A stretch of 64,000 nt of DNA, taken from assembly GCF_004168035.1 (NCBI RefSeq), contig NZ_SDPU01000028.1, positions 124,001 through 188,000 on the forward strand. Direction: 5' to 3'. A program made the translations under genes and the position numbers. The notes beneath the pieces are model-generated. The model was not told the origin of the DNA. It saw only the letters and a list, made by a program, of their open reading frames with translations, and made no database searches. Positions 20,517 through 33,340 of the stretch are shown piece after piece. How positions within the stretch are numbered: position 1 is the first letter of the stretch; every line of letters begins with the position of its first letter. This DNA comes from Nocardioides iriomotensis (GTDB lineage Bacteria; Actinomycetota; Actinomycetes; Propionibacteriales; Nocardioidaceae).

Positions 20517-22094
20517 TCAGGGCCGGTCGAGGGCGTCACCGGCGCCGCCGCCCGGGGTGAGCGACAGGCCGCGGGCGTCGTCCATGCCGTCGAGCGGGAG
20601 CACCGGGTCGAGCTCGAGGAGGTGCTTGCCGAGCCGCTCGGGGTCGGGCAGCTCGACGGGGTAGACGCCGTCGAAGCAGGCCCGGCACAGCTGCGGCTGG
20701 GGGACGTTGGTCGCCTCGATGAGCTGCTCGAGCGAGATGTACGCGAGGGAGTCGGCGCCGATCGAGCGGCCGATCTCGTCAGAGGACAGGCCGTTGGCGA
20801 TCAGCTCGGCCCGCGTCGGGAAGTCGATGCCGTAGAAGCACGGCCACTTCACCGGCGGGGAGGAGATCCGCACGTGCACCTCGCGGGCGCCGGCCTCGCG
20901 GAGCATCCGGACCAGCGCGCGCTGGGTGTTGCCGCGGACGATCGAGTCGTCGACCACGACGAGCCGCTTGCCCTCGATGACGTCGCGCAGCGGGTTGAGC
21001 TTCAGCCGGATGCCGAGCTGGCGGATGGTCTGCGACGGCTGGATGAAGGTGCGGCCGACGTAGGAGTTCTTGACCAGCCCGGTGCCGTAGGGGATGCCGC
21101 TCTCCTCGGCGTACCCGATCGCCGCCGGGGTGCCCGACTCCGGCACCGGCATCACCAGGTCGGCGTCGGCGGGGAACTCGCGGGCGAGGCGGCGGCCGAT
21201 CTCGACGCGCACGGAGTGCATGCGCTGGTTGTTCATCAGCGTGTCGGGGCGGGCGAGGTAGACGAACTCGAACAGGCAGTGCTTCGGCTCGGCCTTCGCG
21301 AAGTGCCGGCTCCGCAGGCCGTCCTCGTCGACGGCGACCATCTCGCCGGGCTCGACCTCGCGGATGAAGGACGCGCCGACGATGTCGAGCGCGGCGGTCT
21401 CGGAGGCGATCACCCAGCCGCGCTCGAGGCGGCCGAGCACGAGCGGCCGGATGCCCTGCGGGTCGCGGGCGGCGTACAGCGTGTGCTCGTCCATCCAGAC
21501 GAACGAGAAGGCGCCCTTGATCGTCGGGAGCAGCTCGGCGGCGTTCTCCTCGAGGCTCCTGTCGGGGTGCCAGGCGAGCAGGGCGGTGACCAGGCTGGTG
21601 TCGTTGGTGGCGGCCGGGACGCTGCGCGCGGAGAGGTCGAGCCCGCCGTTGGCGCCGAGGTCGGCGACCTTCTCGGCGAGCTCGTGGGTGTTGGTCAGGT
21701 TGCCGTTGTGGGCCAGCGCGATCGAGCCGGTCTCGGTCGGGCGGAACGTCGGCTGCGCGTTGTGCCAGGTGCTCGCGCCAGTCGTCGAGTAGCGGCAGTG
21801 GCCGACCGCGACGTGCCCCTGCAGCGAGGCGAGCGTGGTCTCGTCGAACACCTGCGAGACCAGGCCCATGTCCTTGTAGACGAGGATCTGCCGGCCGTTG
21901 CTGACCGCGATGCCCGCGGACTCCTGGCCGCGGTGCTGGAGGGCGTACAGGCCGTAGTAGCTGAGCTTCGCGACGTCCTCGCCCGGCGCCCACACGCCGA
22001 AGACGCCGCAGGCGTCCTGGGGTCCGGTGTCGTGGGGGTCGAGCTCGTGGGTCAGGCGGCCGTCTCCGCGGCGTCCACTAGGCACACGAGTCAT
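20517..22094 (-). CDS. purF: amidophosphoribosyltransferase (glutamine PRPP amidotransferase)
   Basis: 525 residues. First committed step of purine synthesis: PRPP plus glutamine to phosphoribosylamine. The catalytic cysteine of the class II glutaminase is Cys29 in DACGVFGV, after a 28-residue leader that is removed in related enzymes. YYGLYALQHRGQESAGI and ALAHNGNLTN define the glutaminase; VVVDDSIVRGNTQRALV is the PRPP-binding loop. It is downstream of the M20 peptidase gene by 54 bases and upstream of purM by 39 bases. Confidence 0.97.
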   Translation of the reverse strand: MTRVPSGRRGDGRLTHELDPHDTGPQDACGVFGVWAPGEDVAKLSYYGLYALQHRGQESAGIAVSNGRQILVYKDMGLVSQVFDETTLASLQGHVAVGHCRYSTTGASTWHNAQPTFRPTETGSIALAHNGNLTNTHELAEKVADLGANGGLDLSARSVPAATNDTSLVTALLAWHPDRSLEENAAELLPTIKGAFSFVWMDEHTLYAARDPQGIRPLVLGRLERGWVIASETAALDIVGASFIREVEPGEMVAVDEDGLRSRHFAKAEPKHCLFEFVYLARPDTLMNNQRMHSVRVEIGRRLAREFPADADLVMPVPESGTPAAIGYAEESGIPYGTGLVKNSYVGRTFIQPSQTIRQLGIRLKLNPLRDVIEGKRLVVVDDSIVRGNTQRALVRMLREAGAREVHVRISSPPVKWPCFYGIDFPTRAELIANGLSSDEIGRSIGADSLAYISLEQLIEATNVPQPQLCRACFDGVYPVELPDPERLGKHLLELDPVLPLDGMDDARGLSLTPGGGAGDALDRP

Positions 22095-22148: not shown

Positions 22149-23498
22149 TCAGCCCTGCGCGAGGTTGTGCAGGAGCAGCGCCTCGGCGACGCAGACCTTC
22201 TCGAACTCCGCGAGGTGCAGGCCCTCGTTGGCGCCGTGCGCGCGGGTGTCCGGATCCTCGACACCGGTCACCAGCACGGACGCCTGCGGGAAGGCCTCGC
22301 GGAACGCCGCGATGAACGGGATCGACCCGCCGACCCCCATGTCGATCGGCTCCACGCCGCCCCAGGCGTCCTTGAACGCCGCGCGCGCGGCGTCGTACGC
22401 CGGACCGGTGGCGTCGATCTGGGTCGGCTCACCGAGCTCACCGGGCGTGAACGTGAGCTGGGCGCCCCACGGCACGTGCGTGCGCAGGTGGTCCTCGACC
22501 GCCCGCATCGCCCGCTTGGAGTCGTCGCCCGGGGCGAGCCGGACGGAGAGCTTGGCCTTCACGGACGGGATCAGGGTGTTGCTGGCGTCGGCGGTGCGGG
22601 TCACGTCGAGGCCGATCGTGGCGATGGCCGGCTTGGTCCAGATCCGGTCGACGACCGAGCCGGTGCCGATCAGCTCGAGGCCGTCGACCATGCCGGCCTC
22701 GGCGCGGACCCGGTCGAGGGGGTACTCGACGTCCGCCGCCTTGCCGTGGACCAGGCCCTCGACGGCGACGTCGCCGTTGTCGTCGTGCAGGGTCGCGAGC
22801 AGCCGGACCATCGCGGTGACCGCGTCGGGCACCGCGCCGCCCCACATGCCGGAGTGCACGCCGTGGGTCAGCGTGCGGACCTCGACGAAGCAGTCGACCA
22901 GGCCGCGCAGGCTGGTGGTCAGGGCGGGCTCGCCGATGTCCCAGTTGCCGGAGTCGGCGATGACGATGACGTCGGCGGCGAGCAGGTGCTGGTGCTCGGT
23001 GAGGAACGCCTCCAGGGTCGGGGACCCGACCTCCTCCTCGCCCTCGACCAGGACGGTGACCCCCACGGGTAGGTCGTCGCCGAACGTCCGGATCGCCGCG
23101 AGGTGGGCCGCGATGCCGGCCTTGTCGTCGGCGGCGCCGCGGCCGTAGAGCCGGTCGCCCCGCTCGGTCGGCTCGAACGGCTCGCTGTCCCAGTCGGCCG
23201 GGTCGCCGACGGGCTGCACGTCGTGGTGGGCGTAGAGCAGCACGGTCGGCGCGCCCTCGGGAGCGGGCTTGCGCGCCACGACGGCCGGAGCGCCGCCGGC
23301 CGCGGTCAGGATCTGCACGTCGTCGAAGCCCTCACCGCGGAACAGCTCGGCCGTGGCCTCCGCCGACCGCCGTACGTCGTCGGCGCGGGCGGGGTCGGCG
23401 CTGACCGACGGGATGCGCACGAGCGCCTCCAGGTCGGCGCGGACGGAGGGCATCACCTCGCGCACGCGGGCGCGGATCTGGTCGGGGGACGACGTCAT
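22149..23498 (-). CDS. M20 family metallopeptidase (dipeptidase)
   Basis: 449 residues from ATG 23498. The metal-site segments YAHHDVQPVG, GRGAADDKAG (bridging Asp), EGEEEVGSP (catalytic Glu pair) and DSGNWDIG are all present, and the C-terminal HGANEGLHLAEF supplies the last His ligand. The insertion domain (VHSGMWGGAVPDAV) marks the PepV/ArgE/CNDP-like dipeptidase branch. No signal peptide, so cytoplasmic. It is the first gene of a probable M20-purF-purM transcript, perhaps recycling peptide amino acids; that link is inference. Confidence 0.9.
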   Translation of the reverse strand: MTSSPDQIRARVREVMPSVRADLEALVRIPSVSADPARADDVRRSAEATAELFRGEGFDDVQILTAAGGAPAVVARKPAPEGAPTVLLYAHHDVQPVGDPADWDSEPFEPTERGDRLYGRGAADDKAGIAAHLAAIRTFGDDLPVGVTVLVEGEEEVGSPTLEAFLTEHQHLLAADVIVIADSGNWDIGEPALTTSLRGLVDCFVEVRTLTHGVHSGMWGGAVPDAVTAMVRLLATLHDDNGDVAVEGLVHGKAADVEYPLDRVRAEAGMVDGLELIGTGSVVDRIWTKPAIATIGLDVTRTADASNTLIPSVKAKLSVRLAPGDDSKRAMRAVEDHLRTHVPWGAQLTFTPGELGEPTQIDATGPAYDAARAAFKDAWGGVEPIDMGVGGSIPFIAAFREAFPQASVLVTGVEDPDTRAHGANEGLHLAEFEKVCVAEALLLHNLAQG

Positions 23499-23605: not shown

Positions 23606-24967
23606 ATGCACACCTGGCTCCGCCCGCTCCTGCCTGCACTCGTCCTGCTGCTCGCCGTGACCGCCCTGCCGGCTCAGGCCGTCGAGTGGACCCCACGCAG
23701 CGCGCCGACCGCACCCGCCGTGCACGCCGACCGCGCGATCGCGCGGAAGGCGACGGCCTCCCGCGCCCGCGCCCCGAAGCGGCCACAGGCCGCGCAGGGC
23801 TGGTCCGGCTACGCCTTCGACGCGTGCCGGGCGCCGTCGTCGCGCCAGATGGACCGCTGGCGGGTGAGCTCGCCGTTCCTCGGCGTCGGCATCTACATCG
23901 GCGGCCGGCTCCGGGCCTGCCCGCAGAAGCACCTCACCCGGCACTGGGTCAGCCGGCAGACCCGCCGCGGCTGGCGGATGCTGCCGCTGTGGGTGGGGCC
24001 GCAGGCCTCCTGCTCGCGGTACGGCGCGCGCATCTCGACCCGCCCGCGGGCCGCCGAGCACCAGGGCGCCCAAGCCGCGCGCGGGGCCCGGGCCGCGGCC
24101 CGCCGGCTCGGCCTCCCGGCCGGCACCGTGCTCTGGTACGACCTCGAGTGGTTCCCCACCCACCGCCGGCACTGCACCCGCACCGCGCTGCGCTTCCTCG
24201 CGGCGTGGACCCGCACCCTGCACCGGCACGGGTACCGGTCCGGCGTCTACTCCAGCGTCAGCGCGGGCATCAAGGCGCTCGGCCGGGTGCGCGGCGCGCG
24301 GCACTACGCGCACCCCGACGCGGTCTGGTTCGCCTGGGCCAACCGCCGGCGCGACTCCTGGCTCGGCCGCGACTGGGTGCGCGCGCCGCGCTGGAAGACC
24401 CACCGGCGCGTGCACCAGTTCTCGCTGAACGACCGGGCGTCGTACGGCGGCGTCCGGATCAGCATCGACCGCAACTACGTCGACCTGGGCTCCTCCCCCG
24501 CGCTGCGCCGGCTGCCGGCCGCCTGCGGGCGGGTCGCCGACCGCCGGCACTACCGGGACCTGCGTCGCGGCCACCGGGGCGAGCTCGTGCACGTGGCGCG
24601 CTGCCTGCTGCACGTGAAGGGCGCCGGCGCCTACGACCGGCGGATGAAGGCGGCCGTCCGGAAGGTCCAGCGGCACGCCCACCTGCCGCGCACCGGCCGG
24701 ATCGGCACCCGGACCTGGGTCGCCCTGCTCGCCCGCGGTCCGCGCCCGGTGCTCAAGCGCGGCTCCGAGGGGCCGGCGGTCCGCCGCCTGCAGCGCAGCC
24801 TCACCGCGGCGCTGCCCGGGTCGGTCGCGGTGCACGGCCACTTCGGGCCGGCGACGTCGGCGGCCGTGCAGCGCTACCAGCGCCGTACCGGCCTGAACGT
24901 CACCGCGGTGGCGGGACCTCGGACGTGGCGGAACCTCTCCCACGGCCGACCGGGACGTAGGCACTGA
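23606..24967 (+). CDS. secreted DUF1906 (Rv2525c-like) glycoside hydrolase-fold protein with two peptidoglycan-binding repeats, copy 1
   Basis: 453 residues. A signal peptide (ending LPAQA) is followed by the DUF1906 domain (about 60-300: GYAFDACRAPS, GVGIYIGG, LWYDLEWF, IDRNYVD), a TIM-barrel family related to lysozyme-like glycosidases and to mycobacterial Rv2525c. Two PG_binding_1 repeats follow (about 325-380 and 385-450, the second with FGPATSAAVQRYQRRTGL). Unlike copies 2 and 3 it is extremely arginine-rich (for example RQTRRGWRM, RAAARRLGLP). A peptidoglycan-related activity is inferred. Its last 68 bases overlap the SCP-2-like gene tail-to-tail. Confidence 0.85.
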   Translation: MHTWLRPLLPALVLLLAVTALPAQAVEWTPRSAPTAPAVHADRAIARKATASRARAPKRPQAAQGWSGYAFDACRAPSSRQMDRWRVSSPFLGVGIYIGGRLRACPQKHLTRHWVSRQTRRGWRMLPLWVGPQASCSRYGARISTRPRAAEHQGAQAARGARAAARRLGLPAGTVLWYDLEWFPTHRRHCTRTALRFLAAWTRTLHRHGYRSGVYSSVSAGIKALGRVRGARHYAHPDAVWFAWANRRRDSWLGRDWVRAPRWKTHRRVHQFSLNDRASYGGVRISIDRNYVDLGSSPALRRLPAACGRVADRRHYRDLRRGHRGELVHVARCLLHVKGAGAYDRRMKAAVRKVQRHAHLPRTGRIGTRTWVALLARGPRPVLKRGSEGPAVRRLQRSLTAALPGSVAVHGHFGPATSAAVQRYQRRTGLNVTAVAGPRTWRNLSHGRPGRRH

Positions 24968-25301
24968 GGTCGCTGCGCTCGCCGCTCGCGACGATCCGCC
25001 CGGCCCCGACCGCGTCCGCCCAGGACAGGTCGCCGAGCGCCAGCCCGATCCAGGTCTCCGCGTCCGTCTCGACCACGGCCGGCGGCGTGCCGCGCGTGTG
25101 CCGGGTGCCGGGGATCGCCTGCGCCGCGGCGTACGGCGGCACCCGGATCTCGACCGCGCCGCCGGGCGCCTCGGCGACCAGCAGCGCGAGCGTGTGCTTC
25201 GTGAGCAGGCGCAGGTCCGCAGGTTCGCGTCCGCCGGCGCGGAACCGCGCGGTGGCGGCGGCCGCCTCGGCGGGGTCGGCCGGACGGAGACGGACGGGCA
25301 C
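24900..25301 (-). CDS. SCP-2/sterol-carrier-like domain protein
   Basis: 133 residues from GTG 25301. The conserved core (VEIRVPPYAAAQAI, RHTRGTPPAVVETDAETW, LGDLSWADAV, RIVASGERSDLSAYVPV) is that of the actinobacterial sterol-carrier-like protein usually found next to purF. Such domains bind a hydrophobic ligand; the ligand and role are unknown. Cytoplasmic. It is the only reverse-strand gene inside the DUF1906 block, and its unconserved C-terminal 20 residues are encoded within the overlap with DUF1906 copy 1. Confidence 0.78.
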   Translation of the reverse strand: MPVRLRPADPAEAAAATARFRAGGREPADLRLLTKHTLALLVAEAPGGAVEIRVPPYAAAQAIPGTRHTRGTPPAVVETDAETWIGLALGDLSWADAVGAGRIVASGERSDLSAYVPVGRGRGSATSEVPPPR

Positions 25302-25359
25302 GGGTCCAGGCTAGGGTGACGGCTCCACCAGCCCACCAGCACCTCTCGGGGGAGACACC

Positions 25360-26691
25360 GTGCGCCGACTCACCACCACCCTGACCGCCCTCGCCGTCGC
25401 GCTCGCCGGCACCGTCGCCACGGGCTCGCTGCTGCGGCCCGCGGACGCTGCGGCGAAGGCGTCGCCCGACAACTTCGCCGGCTACGCCTTCGACACCTGG
25501 ACCGCGCCGGCCCAGGCGACGATGGACGCCTGGTGGCTGAGCTCGCCGTACACCGGGGTCGGCATCTACACCTCCGGCGTCAACCGGTTCGACGAGGTGC
25601 AGCCCGAGCTCACCCCGACCTGGGTCGCGACGCAGGCGTCGCGCGGCTGGAAGCTGCTGCCGATCCACGTCGGGCTGCAGGCCTCGTGCGGCCACCCCGA
25701 GCGCGACTGGCAGCGGATCGACCCCAACCCGGCCGACGGCTACGCCACCGCCCGGGCGCAGGGCGTCGCGGAGGCCGACCAGGCCGTCGCCTCGGCCTCC
25801 GGCCTGGGGATCGGCTCGGGCAGCACGCTCTGGTACGACCTCGAGGCGTTCAACACCGACGACGCCGCCTGCCGCGACTCGGCGCTGGCGCTCGTCACCG
25901 GCTGGACCGAGCGGCTGCACCAGCTCGGCTACAAGAGCGGCTTCTACTCCAGCGCCGCGTCCGGCATCGCGATGCTCGACAAGGCCCGCGTCGACACCAC
26001 CGACCCGTGGGTCCTGCCCGACCAGATCTGGATCGCGCACTACGTCAGCCGCACCGACTGCAAGCTGCAGTGGGGCACGACGTCCTCGGAGTACGTCGCC
26101 GCCGACGCGTGGCCGGGCAACCGCCTCCGGCAGTTCTGCGGCACCCACACCGAGACGTACGGCGGCGTCCCGGTGAGCATCGACAGCAACTACCTCGACT
26201 TCGGCAAGGGCGCGCAGCCGATCGGCAGCGGCCGCAAGTGCGGCACGACGATCGACCTGCGCCGCTACCCGGCGCTGCACCGCGGAGACCGTGGCGAGAA
26301 GGTCAAGGCGCTGCAGTGCTTCCTGCGGAAGGCGAACGCCTACCACGGCCGGGTGCACGGGAAGTTCCACCCGGGCACCGTCAAGGCGGTCAAGCGCTTC
26401 CAGAAGCGCTCCGACACCCTGGCCGTGAGCGGCAAGGCGACCAAGAAGACCTGGATCGCGCTGCTCGCCAAGGGCTCCGACCCGGTGCTGAAGTACGGCT
26501 CGCGCGCCGGCTCGGTCCGCCGCCTCCAGCGTGCGCTGAACGCCGCCGAGGGCTCACGGATCGACGTGACCGGCTACTTCGACCGGACGACCCAGCGCGA
26601 GGTGACGTCCTACCAGCGCGGCCGGGGCCTCCCGGGCACCGGCGTGCTCTCCGTCGAGACCTGGGACGCGCTCCAGCGGGGCCGCCGCTGA
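25360..26691 (+). CDS. secreted DUF1906 protein with two peptidoglycan-binding repeats, copy 2
   Basis: 443 residues with a signal peptide (RRLTTTLTALAVALAGTVAT, cleavage near DAAAKA). DUF1906 domain about 40-290 (GYAFDTWTAP, GVGIYTSG, LWYDLEAFN, SIDSNYLDFG) with the acidic YDLE motif. Two PG_binding_1 repeats lie at about 305-365 and 375-440 (FHPGTVKAVKRFQKRS, YFDRTTQREVTSYQRG). Same layout as its neighbours. Starts 58 bases from the divergent SCP-2-like gene. Confidence 0.88.
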   Translation: MRRLTTTLTALAVALAGTVATGSLLRPADAAAKASPDNFAGYAFDTWTAPAQATMDAWWLSSPYTGVGIYTSGVNRFDEVQPELTPTWVATQASRGWKLLPIHVGLQASCGHPERDWQRIDPNPADGYATARAQGVAEADQAVASASGLGIGSGSTLWYDLEAFNTDDAACRDSALALVTGWTERLHQLGYKSGFYSSAASGIAMLDKARVDTTDPWVLPDQIWIAHYVSRTDCKLQWGTTSSEYVAADAWPGNRLRQFCGTHTETYGGVPVSIDSNYLDFGKGAQPIGSGRKCGTTIDLRRYPALHRGDRGEKVKALQCFLRKANAYHGRVHGKFHPGTVKAVKRFQKRSDTLAVSGKATKKTWIALLAKGSDPVLKYGSRAGSVRRLQRALNAAEGSRIDVTGYFDRTTQREVTSYQRGRGLPGTGVLSVETWDALQRGRR

Positions 26692-26813
26692 CCGCAAATC
26701 CTTGTGAATGACACCGCTGTAATTCACTGATTTGTTGTGGAATCGGCGTAACGGTTGAGGATTTTGTGACTAGAGTGACTCCGCCGCACTCGTAGACCTC
26801 CCGGGGAGCCTCC

Positions 26814-28223
26814 ATGGCCAGCCAGCCGACCACGTCGACACGCCTGACCGGAGGGGTCGTGGCCGCCGCCGTCCTGGTGCTCCTCGCCGGCCTGCTCGGG
26901 ACCGTGCCCGCGACCGCGGCGCCGGGTGCCCCCGCCCCGGCCGGTGCGGCAGTGCAGGCCGCGAAGGCCGCGCGCACCGGCAACCCGGCCACGCCGGGCA
27001 GCTTCACCGGCTACGGCTTCGACCAGTGCGTCGCGCCCACCCAGTCCGCGATGAATGCGTGGCTCACCTCGTCGCCGTTCTGGGCCGTCGGCATCTACAT
27101 CTCCGGCGACTCCCGCGCCTGCCGCGACCAACCCAACCTCACCCCGACCTGGGTCAGCACCCAGCTCGCCAACGGCTGGCGCCTCCTCCCGATCACGCTG
27201 GGGCCGCAGGCGTCGTGCACCACGCGCGACCGCTACCAGAAGCAGGTCCGGATCGACCCCAAGCCCGCCGGGGGGTACGCCGCCGCGCTGGCCCAGGGCC
27301 GCGCCGAGGCCGACAAGGCCGTCGCCACCGCCACCGCGCTGGGCATCGTGCCCGGCAGCACGCTCTTCTACGACCTCGAGGGCGACTTCTCCGCCAGCAA
27401 CACCGACTGCCGCGAGTCCGCCCTGACCTTCGTGTCGGGCTGGGTCACGCGGCTGCACGAGCTCGGCTACCTCGCCGGCTACTACTCCAGCGCGGGCACC
27501 GGCATCAAGATGCTCGACGACGCCGCGGTGCTCCGCCCCGGCACGTTCGCGATGCCCGACCACCTCTGGGTGGCGCGCTGGAGCGGCACCCCCAACAGGA
27601 TCAACGAGTCGCGCACGACGTACCTGCGTGACACGAGCTGGTCGAACCACCAGCGCGTCCACCAGTACCGCGGCGGTCACAACGAGACCCACGGCGGCGT
27701 CACGATCAACATCGACTCCAACTGGCTCGACCTCGGCACCGGCTCGGTGGCGCGCACCGCCAAGACGTTCTGCGGCGGTGTCCCCGTCGACTACCCCGTC
27801 TACTCCGCGCTGCGCGTCGGCGCCACCGGCGACCAGGTCCGCGCCGCGCAGTGCCTGCTGCGGCAGAAGAAGAAGTACGCCGGCGAGATCACCGGCACCT
27901 ACGACGCCGCCACCGCGGCCGCCACGTCGGCGTACCGCACCAAGATCGGCCTCCCCGCGCGCGGCTCGATGTCGAAGGCGGTGTGGACCTCGATCCTGGC
28001 CCGCGGCAACCACCCGCTGATGAAGTACGGCGCCACCGGGCACGCCGTGCGCCGGCTGCAGCGCGCCCTCAACGCCGCCGACCGGGCCGGCCTCGCCGTC
28101 AGCGGCGTGTACGAGGCGACCACGACCGCCGCCGTCCGGAGGTACCAGGCCGACAACCGGCTGCCGAGCACCGGCGTCGTCACCGACGCGATGTGGGCCG
28201 AGCTGCGCAAGGGCAACCGCTAG
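26814..28223 (+). CDS. secreted DUF1906 protein with two peptidoglycan-binding repeats, copy 3
   Basis: 469 residues. ATG 26814 follows GGGGAG. The signal peptide (about 15-45) leads into an Ala/Pro linker, then the DUF1906 domain (about 62-320: GYGFDQCVAPT, VGIYISGDSRACRD, LFYDLEGDFSASN, NIDSNWLDLG) and two PG_binding_1 repeats (about 330-395 and 400-465). Cysteine pairs (RACRD, SCTTR, CRES, FCGG) fit disulfides in an exported protein. The 122 bases upstream are AT-rich with an imperfect GTGAAT/ATTCAC inverted repeat at about 26703-26726, perhaps a promoter or operator. Confidence 0.88.
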   Translation: MASQPTTSTRLTGGVVAAAVLVLLAGLLGTVPATAAPGAPAPAGAAVQAAKAARTGNPATPGSFTGYGFDQCVAPTQSAMNAWLTSSPFWAVGIYISGDSRACRDQPNLTPTWVSTQLANGWRLLPITLGPQASCTTRDRYQKQVRIDPKPAGGYAAALAQGRAEADKAVATATALGIVPGSTLFYDLEGDFSASNTDCRESALTFVSGWVTRLHELGYLAGYYSSAGTGIKMLDDAAVLRPGTFAMPDHLWVARWSGTPNRINESRTTYLRDTSWSNHQRVHQYRGGHNETHGGVTINIDSNWLDLGTGSVARTAKTFCGGVPVDYPVYSALRVGATGDQVRAAQCLLRQKKKYAGEITGTYDAATAAATSAYRTKIGLPARGSMSKAVWTSILARGNHPLMKYGATGHAVRRLQRALNAADRAGLAVSGVYEATTTAAVRRYQADNRLPSTGVVTDAMWAELRKGNR

Positions 28224-28349: not shown

Positions 28350-29597
28350 ATGCGCAGGAACCTCCTGTTCACAGCAGCAGCAACCTCCACCGCCGTCGTG
28401 GGCTCGATCCTCGGATCGGGGCTCGCCGCGGCCGCGCCCGCCGTACCACTCGCCTCGGGCGACACCGCCCCCTACATCGTGGTCCTGGCCGACGGCGCCG
28501 ACGCGCGCTCGGTCGCGGCCGCGCAGGCGGACCGGCTCGGCCTCGATGTCGGGCACGTGTACACCTCGGCGCTCGAGGGCTACAGCGCCACGATGACGCC
28601 GGCCGCGGCCACCGCTCTGCGCGCGCTGCCCACCGTGCAGTCGGTGCAGAAGGACACGAAGGTCAGCGCGACGGCCCAGACGACGCCGACCGGCGTCAAC
28701 CGCGCCGACGCGGACCTGTCGCCGACCGCCAGGATCAACGGCGTCGACGAGCGCGTGGACGTGGACGTCGCGGTCATCGACACCGGCGCCGACCTCGACC
28801 ACCCCGACCTGAACATCTACCGCGCCGGCGCGAAGAACTGCTCGACGCTGGCGCTCTCGCCCGAGGACGGCCACGGCCACGGCACCCACGTGTCCGGAAC
28901 GATCGGCGCGCTGGACAACGGCACCGGCGTCGTCGGCGTCGCGCCGGGTGCGCGGATCTGGCCGGTGAAGGTGCTCTCCGACCTGGGCACCGGCCTCAAC
29001 TCCGACGTCATCTGCGGCATCGACTACGTCGCCGCCCACGCCAACGAGATCGAGGTCGCCAACATGAGCCTCGGCGGCGCCGGCTCCGACGACGGCAACT
29101 GCGGCCGCACGGACGACGACGCCATGCACGAGGCGATCTGCGCCGCGACCGACGCCGGTGTCACGTTCGTCGTCGCCGCGGGCAACGACAGCGCCGACGC
29201 GGCCGAGTCCACCCCGGCGGCGTACGACGAGGTCATCACGGTCAGCGCCCTCGCCGACTTCAACGGCCTCCCGGGTGGCGGCGCACCCTCGACGTGCCGC
29301 GCGGACGAGGACGACACGTTCGCGTCGTTCTCCAACTACGGCACGGACGTCGACCTCATCGCGCCGGGCGTGTGCATCAACAGCACCTGGCTGAACGGCG
29401 GCTACAACACCATCTCCGGGACGTCGATGGCCAGCCCGCACGTGGCCGGCGGCGCCGCGCTCTACGCCGCGACCCACCCGACCGCGACGCCCGACCAGAT
29501 CAAGGCCGCGCTCCAGGCCGCCGGCACGACCGACTGGTCGAACGCCGACGACCCGGACGGCATCAAGGAGAAGCTGCTGAACGTCAGCACCTTCTGA
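28350..29597 (+). CDS. secreted S8 subtilisin-family serine protease, copy 1
   Basis: 415 residues. Signal peptide (about 1-30), I9 inhibitory propeptide (about 38-110: PYIVVLADG, GYSATMTPAAA, VQSVQKD), then the S8 domain with Asp144 (VIDTGADLDHPD), His177 (GHGTHVSG), oxyanion Asn278 (AAGND) and Ser358 (SGTSMASPHVAGG). Six cysteines in the catalytic domain are shared with copy 2 and suggest disulfides. No C-terminal extension or sorting signal, so released as a soluble protease. Close relative of proteinase K/aqualysin-type enzymes. Confidence 0.93.
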   Translation: MRRNLLFTAAATSTAVVGSILGSGLAAAAPAVPLASGDTAPYIVVLADGADARSVAAAQADRLGLDVGHVYTSALEGYSATMTPAAATALRALPTVQSVQKDTKVSATAQTTPTGVNRADADLSPTARINGVDERVDVDVAVIDTGADLDHPDLNIYRAGAKNCSTLALSPEDGHGHGTHVSGTIGALDNGTGVVGVAPGARIWPVKVLSDLGTGLNSDVICGIDYVAAHANEIEVANMSLGGAGSDDGNCGRTDDDAMHEAICAATDAGVTFVVAAGNDSADAAESTPAAYDEVITVSALADFNGLPGGGAPSTCRADEDDTFASFSNYGTDVDLIAPGVCINSTWLNGGYNTISGTSMASPHVAGGAALYAATHPTATPDQIKAALQAAGTTDWSNADDPDGIKEKLLNVSTF

Positions 29598-29791: not shown

Positions 29792-31027
29792 ATGCGCAGA
29801 CTCACCATGACCGCCATCGCGGTCGCTGGCCTGGCGATCGGCTCCACCACGAGCCTGAGCGCCGTCGCGGCACCGCCCACCGGCGGTGTCGACCGGGTGT
29901 CGGGCTACATCGTCGTCCTCCGGGACGGCGTCGCCCCTGCTCGCGCCGCCGACGCCCAGGCCGACCGGTACGGCGCCGACGTCACCCACCTCTACCGCAA
30001 CGCCCTCTCCGGCTACTCGGCCCGGATGACGGCCGGCGCCGCGAAGGACCTGGCCCGGGACGACCGCGTCGCCTACGTCCAGCGCGACGGCGTCGTGCAC
30101 GCCACCGCGCAGACGCTCCCGACCGGGATCAACCGCGCCGACGCCGAGCTCAGCCCGGCCGCCCGGGTCGACGGGGCCGACGAGCGGGTGGACGTCGACG
30201 TCGCCGTCATCGACACCGGCGTCGACCTCGACCACCCGGACCTCAACGTCTACACCGCGGGCGCCAAGAACTGCTCGACCGGCAAGTCCGCCGAGGACGG
30301 CAACGGCCACGGCAGCCACGTCGCCGGCACGATCGGCGCGCTGGACGACGCCAACGGCGTGGTCGGCATGGCCCCGGGTGCGCGCATCTGGCCGGTGCGG
30401 GTGCTCAACGCCCAGGGCAGCGGGACGTTCTCGGCGATCATCTGCGGCATCGACTACGTCACCGCGCACGCCGACGAGATCGAGATCGCCAACATGAGCC
30501 TCGGCGGCGCGGGCAGCGACGACCGCAGCTGCGGCGCCACCAACGGCGACGCCATGCACGCGGCGATCTGCCGCTCCGTCGCGGCGGGCGTCACCTACGT
30601 CGTGGCGGCGGGCAACGAGAGCGACGACGCGGCCAACCACGTGCCCGCGGCGTACGACGAGGTCATCACGGTCAGCGCGCTCGCCGACTTCAACGGCACG
30701 CCGGGTGGCGGCGCCGCGTCGACCTGCCGCGCGGACCAGGACGACACGTTCGCGGCGTTCTCCAACTACGGCGCCGACGTCGACCTCATCGCCCCCGGCG
30801 TCTGCATCCTCTCGACCTGGAAGGGTGCGGCGTACAACACGATCTCCGGTACGTCGATGGCCAGCCCGCACGTGGCCGGCGGTGCCGCGCTCTACGCCGC
30901 GACGCACCCGACGGCGTCGCCCGACCAGGTGAAGGCCGCGCTCCAGGCCGCCGGCACCACCGACTGGTCGAACGCCGACGACCCGGACGGCGTCAAGGAG
31001 ACGCTGCTGAACGTGTCGACGTTCTGA
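29792..31027 (+). CDS. secreted S8 subtilisin-family serine protease, copy 2
   Basis: 411 residues from ATG 29792. Same plan as copy 1: signal peptide, I9 propeptide (about 38-105), catalytic Asp141 (VIDTGVDLDHPD), His173 (GHGSHVAG), Asn274 (AAGNE) and Ser355 (GTSMASPH). The two share long identical blocks (VDVDVAVIDTG, ANMSLGGAGSDD, YDEVITVSALADFNG) and almost the same last 20 residues, so they are tandem duplicates whose signal peptide and propeptide have diverged most. Convergent with purL, 6 bases between stops. Confidence 0.93.
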   Translation: MRRLTMTAIAVAGLAIGSTTSLSAVAAPPTGGVDRVSGYIVVLRDGVAPARAADAQADRYGADVTHLYRNALSGYSARMTAGAAKDLARDDRVAYVQRDGVVHATAQTLPTGINRADAELSPAARVDGADERVDVDVAVIDTGVDLDHPDLNVYTAGAKNCSTGKSAEDGNGHGSHVAGTIGALDDANGVVGMAPGARIWPVRVLNAQGSGTFSAIICGIDYVTAHADEIEIANMSLGGAGSDDRSCGATNGDAMHAAICRSVAAGVTYVVAAGNESDDAANHVPAAYDEVITVSALADFNGTPGGGAASTCRADQDDTFAAFSNYGADVDLIAPGVCILSTWKGAAYNTISGTSMASPHVAGGAALYAATHPTASPDQVKAALQAAGTTDWSNADDPDGVKETLLNVSTF

Positions 31028-31033
31028 TCAGAG

Positions 31034-33340
<2,307 letters not shown>

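Follow-up and report, generated by a model that had tools for sequence, protein, structure and literature searches.

A purL-linked Rv2525c-type protein of Nocardioides iriomotensis and a palindrome shared with cell-wall hydrolase genes in the Nocardioidaceae

Introduction

Why does a Nocardioides genome carry three exported proteins of the Rv2525c type among its purine genes, and what might they do there? The question is raised by a stretch of 64,000 nucleotides from Nocardioides iriomotensis (contig NZ_SDPU01000028.1, positions 124,001 to 188,000; hereafter the window), in which three plus-strand open reading frames, here called A (23606..24967), B (25360..26691, with a GTG start codon) and C (26814..28223), encode paralogous proteins with a DUF1906 domain. 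A first-pass annotation of the window described them as a tripled set beside purF and two proteases, and suggested a cell-wall remodelling or competition system. The observation of three paralogues is real and its description was right in substance, although some details were only partly confirmed; the interpretation was supported in part. The reading that we favour, with moderate confidence, is that C is a secreted Rv2525c-type peptidoglycan hydrolase, which is linked to purL and is switched together with other wall hydrolases by a palindrome-binding factor, while A and B stand outside this arrangement.

The coordination of wall cutting is the task of MtrA in mycobacteria and of WalR in Bacillus, and the structure of an Rv2525c-type protein has reportedly been available since 2014. 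An operator of the kind described here would provide a direct handle on this coordination in actinobacteria outside the mycobacteria, and would tie Rv2525c-type proteins to the wall machinery in relatives that are not known as pathogens.

Results

All three proteins match PF08924 above its curated cut-off of 27.2 bits (A, E-value 7e-40 and 137.7 bits; B, 2.4e-37 and 129.4 bits; C, 6.8e-42 and 144.3 bits), and each contains two stretches identified by Pfam as PF01471, which confirms the combination of DUF1906 with two peptidoglycan-binding repeats that had been read from the sequence. The N-termini resemble signal peptides by eye, in agreement with the export that had been assumed, and the shared acidic motif YDLE is present in all of them, as WYDLEW, WYDLEA and FYDLEG across the three paralogues. 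The strong difference in composition also holds. A is 42% identical to both B and C, and its hyper-basic mature region has an isoelectric point (pI) of 12.0 and an arginine content of 18.3%, the maxima among 119 related sequences, as compared with a pI of 9.4 for B and 9.7 for C.

The fold was studied in AlphaFold models of C and A (predicted local distance difference test scores of 95.3 and 92.7). Both models are GH25-like barrels with their best likeness to 1sfs, Rv2525c and GH25 enzymes. By VIA-align, the Z scores for C were 18.4 against 1sfs, 17.1 against Rv2525c, 15.5 against LytC and 14.1 against the Streptomyces coelicolor lysozyme 1jfx, and those for A were 18.9 against 1sfs, 17.5 against Rv2525c and 15.6 against SleM. 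Sequence profile searches against the PDB matched mostly peptidoglycan-binding domains and 1sfs. In an alignment of 64 sequences that takes in members of the Micromonosporaceae, the invariant residues in all 64 include D11, D128, E130, Y165, S166, Q225 and D242 (C numbering), and the same columns are invariant when numbered on A. A, B and C each retain all of the presumed active-site acids, so that the loss of acids which the first-pass annotation had named as a refutation of its reading did not occur. Residues D128 and E130 are the D-x-E of the YDLE motif. They close strand 4, the position of the catalytic D-x-E pair in GH25 enzymes, and were matched to that pair by position. We infer that C most likely cuts the glycan of peptidoglycan.

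The promoter of C contains an operator-like palindrome (GAATGACACCGCTGTAATTC, 26706..26725, without strand) with one mismatch to GAAYTACA-N4-TGTARTTC. No other match at up to two mismatches is present in the 64-kb window, and A, B and the downstream S8 protease genes lack the operator. Among the 119 upstream regions of homologs, the palindrome at up to two mismatches precedes 27 of the 30 copies located beyond purL (9 exact, 23 at no more than one mismatch), 2 of the 24 copies between the SCP3 gene and purL, none of the 11 copies between M20/purF and SCP3, and 2 of the 54 copies located elsewhere; in the phylogeny, the two rows in the last group (L078 and L080) fall within the purL-linked copies. 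A reversed-pattern control gave no match in any of the 119 regions. The promoter of C also contains a direct repeat with 9-bp spacing (GTGACTAGAGTGAC, 26766..26779, plus strand), and the repeat pattern GTGACTANNGTGAC is found at all seven C orthologues of the same genus (six exact, one with two mismatches). In the wider sample, GTNAC-N4-GTNAC occurs upstream of 22/54 purL-linked copies, 0/11 copies before SCP3 and 4/54 copies elsewhere, the background being 0.010 per 270-bp region. BlaI-type operators have the form TACA-N2-TGTA; this candidate was set aside on the spacing, which is N4 in the palindrome rather than N2.

We scanned 70 genomes in three sets at up to one mismatch and obtained 150 sites, as compared with a single site for the reversed pattern (in genome G041). 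The first set consisted of eight genomes, five of which had been included on account of an earlier sighting of the motif, and gave 30 sites in 8/8 genomes. The second, of 32 genomes chosen for diversity, gave 48 sites in 24 genomes, and the third, of 30 genomes with DUF1906 from three genera, gave 72 sites in 27 genomes. Targets were traced for all 30 sites in the first set and for 26 of the 48 in the second, 56 in total; sites in the third set were compared with DUF1906 coordinates only, by which 21 of the other 94 sites were placed at DUF1906. The targets in the first set were DUF1906 (8), NlpC/P60 (7), Amidase_2 (2), SpoIID (2), CHAP (2) and M23 (1) genes, together with genes for exported Exo_endo_phos proteins (3) and the intergenic region between crgA and a rhomboid gene (5). 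The targets in the second set were DUF1906 (6, by coordinates), NlpC/P60 (5), Amidase_2 (3), SpoIID (3), SLT with LysM (2), crgA-rhomboid (3), Exo_endo_phos (2), DivIVA (1) and one other. Taken together, 14 of the 56 traced sites are at DUF1906 and 27 at other wall-hydrolase genes, 41 in all. The genome of N. iriomotensis has three sites, located at an amidase gene, an NlpC/P60 gene and C. A site between divergent CHAP and M1 genes (L177) was counted as CHAP, an NlpC/P60 target whose frame is split in two (L186) was recognised by its BLAST similarity, and three sites (L167, L192 and L195) have a second, unassigned gene for a small protein on their other side.

How often the site accompanies DUF1906 depends on the sample. 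The count of eight out of eight genomes in the first set is biased because five were selected for the motif; the fairer figures are the 21 of 30 genomes in the third set in which a site falls within the 600 bp upstream of a DUF1906 domain, with a rough chance estimate of 0.0004 per genome, and the 5 of 20 Nocardioidaceae genomes in the second. Outside the family, G042 has one site only, 85 bp upstream of the open frame of its DUF1906 gene, and sites in G038 and G041 lie at NlpC/P60 and SLT genes. These data suggest that the palindrome is likely to serve as operator for a peptidoglycan-remodelling regulon, so far undescribed, of the Nocardioidaceae and two or more other families of the order. 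In this regulon one factor would coordinate endopeptidases (NlpC/P60, CHAP and M23), amidase, SpoIID and SLT transglycosylases with DUF1906 proteins as the glycan-cutting arm, and it would also reach into cell division through crgA and DivIVA. Among the open-access papers listed, none of those that contain both palindrome halves deals with bacterial wall control, no such regulon appeared, and no paper on Rv2525c or DUF1906 had a title that concerns Nocardioidaceae.

Three features of the operator set were observed in addition. The crgA-rhomboid palindromes (near position 4000 of L169, L173, L174, L179, L185, L190, L200 and L201) sit amid TTGTCCACA/TGTGGA-like sequences, which resemble DnaA boxes, and by eye some extend into a long hairpin. 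At the NlpC/P60 promoters in L165, L172, L178, L182, L186, L189, L193, L199 and L202, a second conserved block, roughly gtcaag-c-cGACACGCCg by eye, directly follows the palindrome; it contains GACAC, the reported core of the WhiA site. Large Exo_endo_phos proteins with starts that resemble signal peptides also recur (L176, L181, L183, L203 and L204).

PF08924 is present in 126 of 148 Nocardioidaceae genomes, with one match in 92 and two or more in 34, and the PurL model matches in all 148, in 141 of them above its cut-off. Distances could be counted for 124 of the 126 genomes among the matches listed, with copy numbers as lower bounds. A PF08924 copy lies within 15 kb of the purL match in 108 of these 124 genomes (median 1,645 bp), farther away on the same contig in nine and on another contig in seven. 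In the window, purL is located at 31034..33340 on the minus strand (TIGR01736 match G000:C21:155049-157244). No purL match was found within about 8-9 kb in 19 stretches from other families of the order (L133-L151) or in 12 loci from Micromonosporaceae (L098, L100-L105 and L107-L111), and SCP3 was nearby in one locus outside the family (L147). Since the link to purL is family-wide and was not seen in the other families, the block is an inheritance of the whole family and not an island. The search for the block in other genomes thus revealed a widespread purL-linked copy, but not a widespread triplet: two or more copies near purL occur in at least ten genomes, and three only in the genome of the window, among the matches listed. 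The arrangement of the window recurs in one other genome (L033), where a single copy precedes SCP3 and the other two sit between SCP3 and purL. In seven genomes (G058, G070, G086, G097, G104, G124 and G136), the PurL match is below its cut-off and the frame is 1287-1576 amino acids long, which together suggest a replacement by a large single-chain PurL; DUF1906 is located 40-60 kb from PurL in six of them, the exception being G104.

The phylogeny, inferred with a quick method, contained 119 rows after removal of 21 duplicates, of the window copies L001-L003 and of four fragmentary or non-catalytic frames (two each from L086 and L110); L015 and L021 had no match to the A-B-C profile. One row each from L030 and L031 that duplicate L128 and L129 were kept, so that two of the 24 SCP3-purL rows are repeats. 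C groups with the purL-linked copies of six genomes of the same genus (7 rows, support 97*), and A groups with the L033 copy before SCP3 and with four copies from other genomes that are located elsewhere (6 rows, 99*). B clusters, with weaker support (94), with SCP3-purL copies of G002, a member of the same genus, G018, G028 and L042, in a clade of six rows of which one is a duplicate. The A lineage is patchy, with four of its six rows away from purine genes as far as the flanks show, and its other five members are also rich in arginine (13.6-16.3%, pI 11.1-11.9; 13.6-18.3% over all six rows). In an approximately unbiased (AU) test on 54 hand-picked rows of the 119, forcing A, B and C into one clade lowered the log-likelihood by 166 (p-AU 1.4e-38), a result that rejects a single recent triplication. 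C is the orthologue of the copy retained near purL and, on the favoured reading, a conserved and vertically inherited gene of the Nocardioidaceae; A and B belong to older, patchy lineages. The notion of a tripled set acting as one system was not upheld, given these old and separate lineages, the single copy in most relatives and the lack of the operator at A and B.

The remainder of the locus modifies the first-pass annotation at several points. The three paralogues are indeed close neighbours, but the minus-strand SCP3 gene (PF17844 in Pfam, 24900..25301) separates A from B; its 3' end shares 68 bp (24900-24967) with the 3' end of A in antisense orientation. To the left, the block is framed by purM, purF (20517..22094) and the gene for an M20 peptidase (22149..23498; NCBIfam model PRK07907, start codon by eye), all on the minus strand and the two purine genes named by eye. 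Hence purF is near, as had been stated, but the M20 gene lies between it and A, and purL closes the block on the other side. The two proteases that had been noted are S8 subtilases with I9 propeptides, encoded downstream of C on the plus strand (28350..29597, flanking C, and 29792..31027, start codon by eye), and a third peptidase is encoded by the M20 gene. The purF, M20, SCP3 and purL genes belong to the conserved neighbourhood. The S8 pair is not a regular part of the set: within the limited flanks of the loci surveyed, an S8 gene after DUF1906 was found only in the window, L129 (identical to L034), L047 and L059. A, B and C are the only PF08924 matches in the genome (4.71 Mb in 47 contigs). 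Control by a riboswitch was discarded as a candidate, no Rfam family having reached its gathering threshold anywhere in the window.

Discussion

These results suggest a mechanism in which the GH25-like barrel of C would most likely use its DxE (YDLE) site to cleave the glycan strand, with the two C-terminal repeats anchoring the enzyme on the wall. A DNA-binding protein recognising GAAYTACA-N4-TGTARTTC would switch C, up or down, together with NlpC/P60, amidase, SpoIID, CHAP, M23 and SLT enzymes. A and B, with their acids intact and no operator, would probably perform the same chemistry under other control. The operator that DUF1906 genes have in common with wall-hydrolase genes is evidence, independent of structure, that places Rv2525c-type proteins in the wall machinery. 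The simplest account makes C one enzyme of a coordinated cutting set, which supports the earlier idea of wall remodelling and supplies it with a mechanism of control; with the GH25-like fold, invariant acids and peptidoglycan-binding repeats, that idea is supported for C above all.

A number of observations weigh against this reading. At the sequence level, membership in GH25 fails, as PF01183 was reported for C only, with 12.9 bits against a cut-off of 27 (E-value 0.14), and 1sfs has an asparagine in place of D128 in the profile alignment. The palindrome of the window itself is not exact, and within the genus it is present upstream of C in 2/7 genomes (G000 and G002), while the 9-bp repeat is present in 7/7. 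A site at DUF1906 is absent from 9/30 genomes in the third set and from 15/20 Nocardioidaceae genomes in the second, and 11 of the 70 genomes scanned, including 3/3 from one family (f2), have no site anywhere. Finally, 8 of the 56 traced sites lie between crgA and rhomboid genes; the convergent orientation of these genes implies that the sites are not ordinary promoters, and they may be something else.

The asparagine in 1sfs also bears on a different view of the barrel, namely that it has no catalytic role but serves as a lectin-like or scaffolding domain, binding glycan and modulating the work of other hydrolases. PMC10480492 is consistent with this, since it presents the activity of Rv2525c as not established and RipD as a non-catalytic member of a hydrolase family. 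However, D11, D128, E130 and D242 are invariant in 64/64 sequences, among them those of A and B, which have diverged strongly. Such conservation is difficult to account for unless the residues serve in chemistry, and we consider a purely binding function unlikely. The extreme basicity of A, the arginine-rich composition of its clade, the patchy distribution of its lineage and the lack of the wall-hydrolase operator at both A and B would fit another scenario, in which A, perhaps along with B, is secreted as an antibacterial muramidase directed at competitors, beside a housekeeping copy C. Yet A has the same architecture and acids as C, and no immunity-like gene is seen among the named neighbours (SCP3, M20, S8, purF and purL), with no dedicated immunity search beyond this naming; we found no evidence for the competition system proposed earlier and regard such a role as improbable. 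It could also be that C shares the operator although it does not act on the wall, and that the substrate of DUF1906 proteins is a secreted polysaccharide, as an excerpt of PMC12510369 lists an Rv2525c-like protein among the candidates in a pullulan-fed secretome. The two peptidoglycan-binding repeats in A, B and C argue against this, as do the 27 of 42 traced non-DUF1906 sites that face peptidoglycan-hydrolase genes, and it is the least probable of the explanations considered here.

The peptidoglycan hydrolase that we propose for C can be compared with several known systems. Rv2525c from Mycobacterium tuberculosis (PDB 4PMN, 4PMO, 4PMQ and 4PMR), after which the PF08924 family is named, has a similar barrel (Z about 17), but its solved chains comprise 202-211 residues and the window proteins carry two additional peptidoglycan-binding repeats. 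Moreover, Rv2525c is described as a substrate of the twin-arginine translocation pathway in an excerpt of PMC4038636, whereas inspection of A, B and C by eye revealed no classical twin-arginine motif. The GH25 muramidases and endolysins (LytC, 1jfx, Cpl-1 and SleM) share with the models of A and C the barrel (Z 12-16) and a DxE pair that ends strand 4, but differ from the window proteins in that the latter fall below the PF01183 cut-off and are only 9-19% identical to them in the structural alignments. Fusions of TelC, a peptidoglycan-binding domain and an Rv2525c-like domain in Actinomycetota, for which PMC12419801 proposes a function in conflict, likewise combine an Rv2525c-like barrel with peptidoglycan-binding domains; unlike these, A, B and C have no TelC-type domain reported by Pfam.

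The closest regulatory parallel is the wall and division regulon of mycobacterial MtrA, which, according to excerpts of the sources, binds the ripA and wag31 promoters (PMC6265350) and has Rv2525c as a proposed target (PMC10480492). Similarly, the palindrome marks NlpC/P60, crgA-linked and DivIVA sites. The 9-bp repeat at first resembled an MtrA box, but the published MtrA motif, as given in excerpts of PMC6265350, PMC11215152 and PMC3353115, is a direct repeat of GTNAC with an 11-bp period, and this form (exact GTNAC-N6-GTNAC) is almost absent from our upstream regions: 1/24 between SCP3 and purL, 0/30 beyond purL, 0/11 before SCP3 and 0/54 elsewhere, 1/119 in total. Because of this difference in spacing MtrA does not fit, and the two regulons, while alike in the kinds of genes that they mark, differ in their sites: an 11-bp-period direct repeat for MtrA, and here an inverted repeat accompanied by a 9-bp-period repeat.

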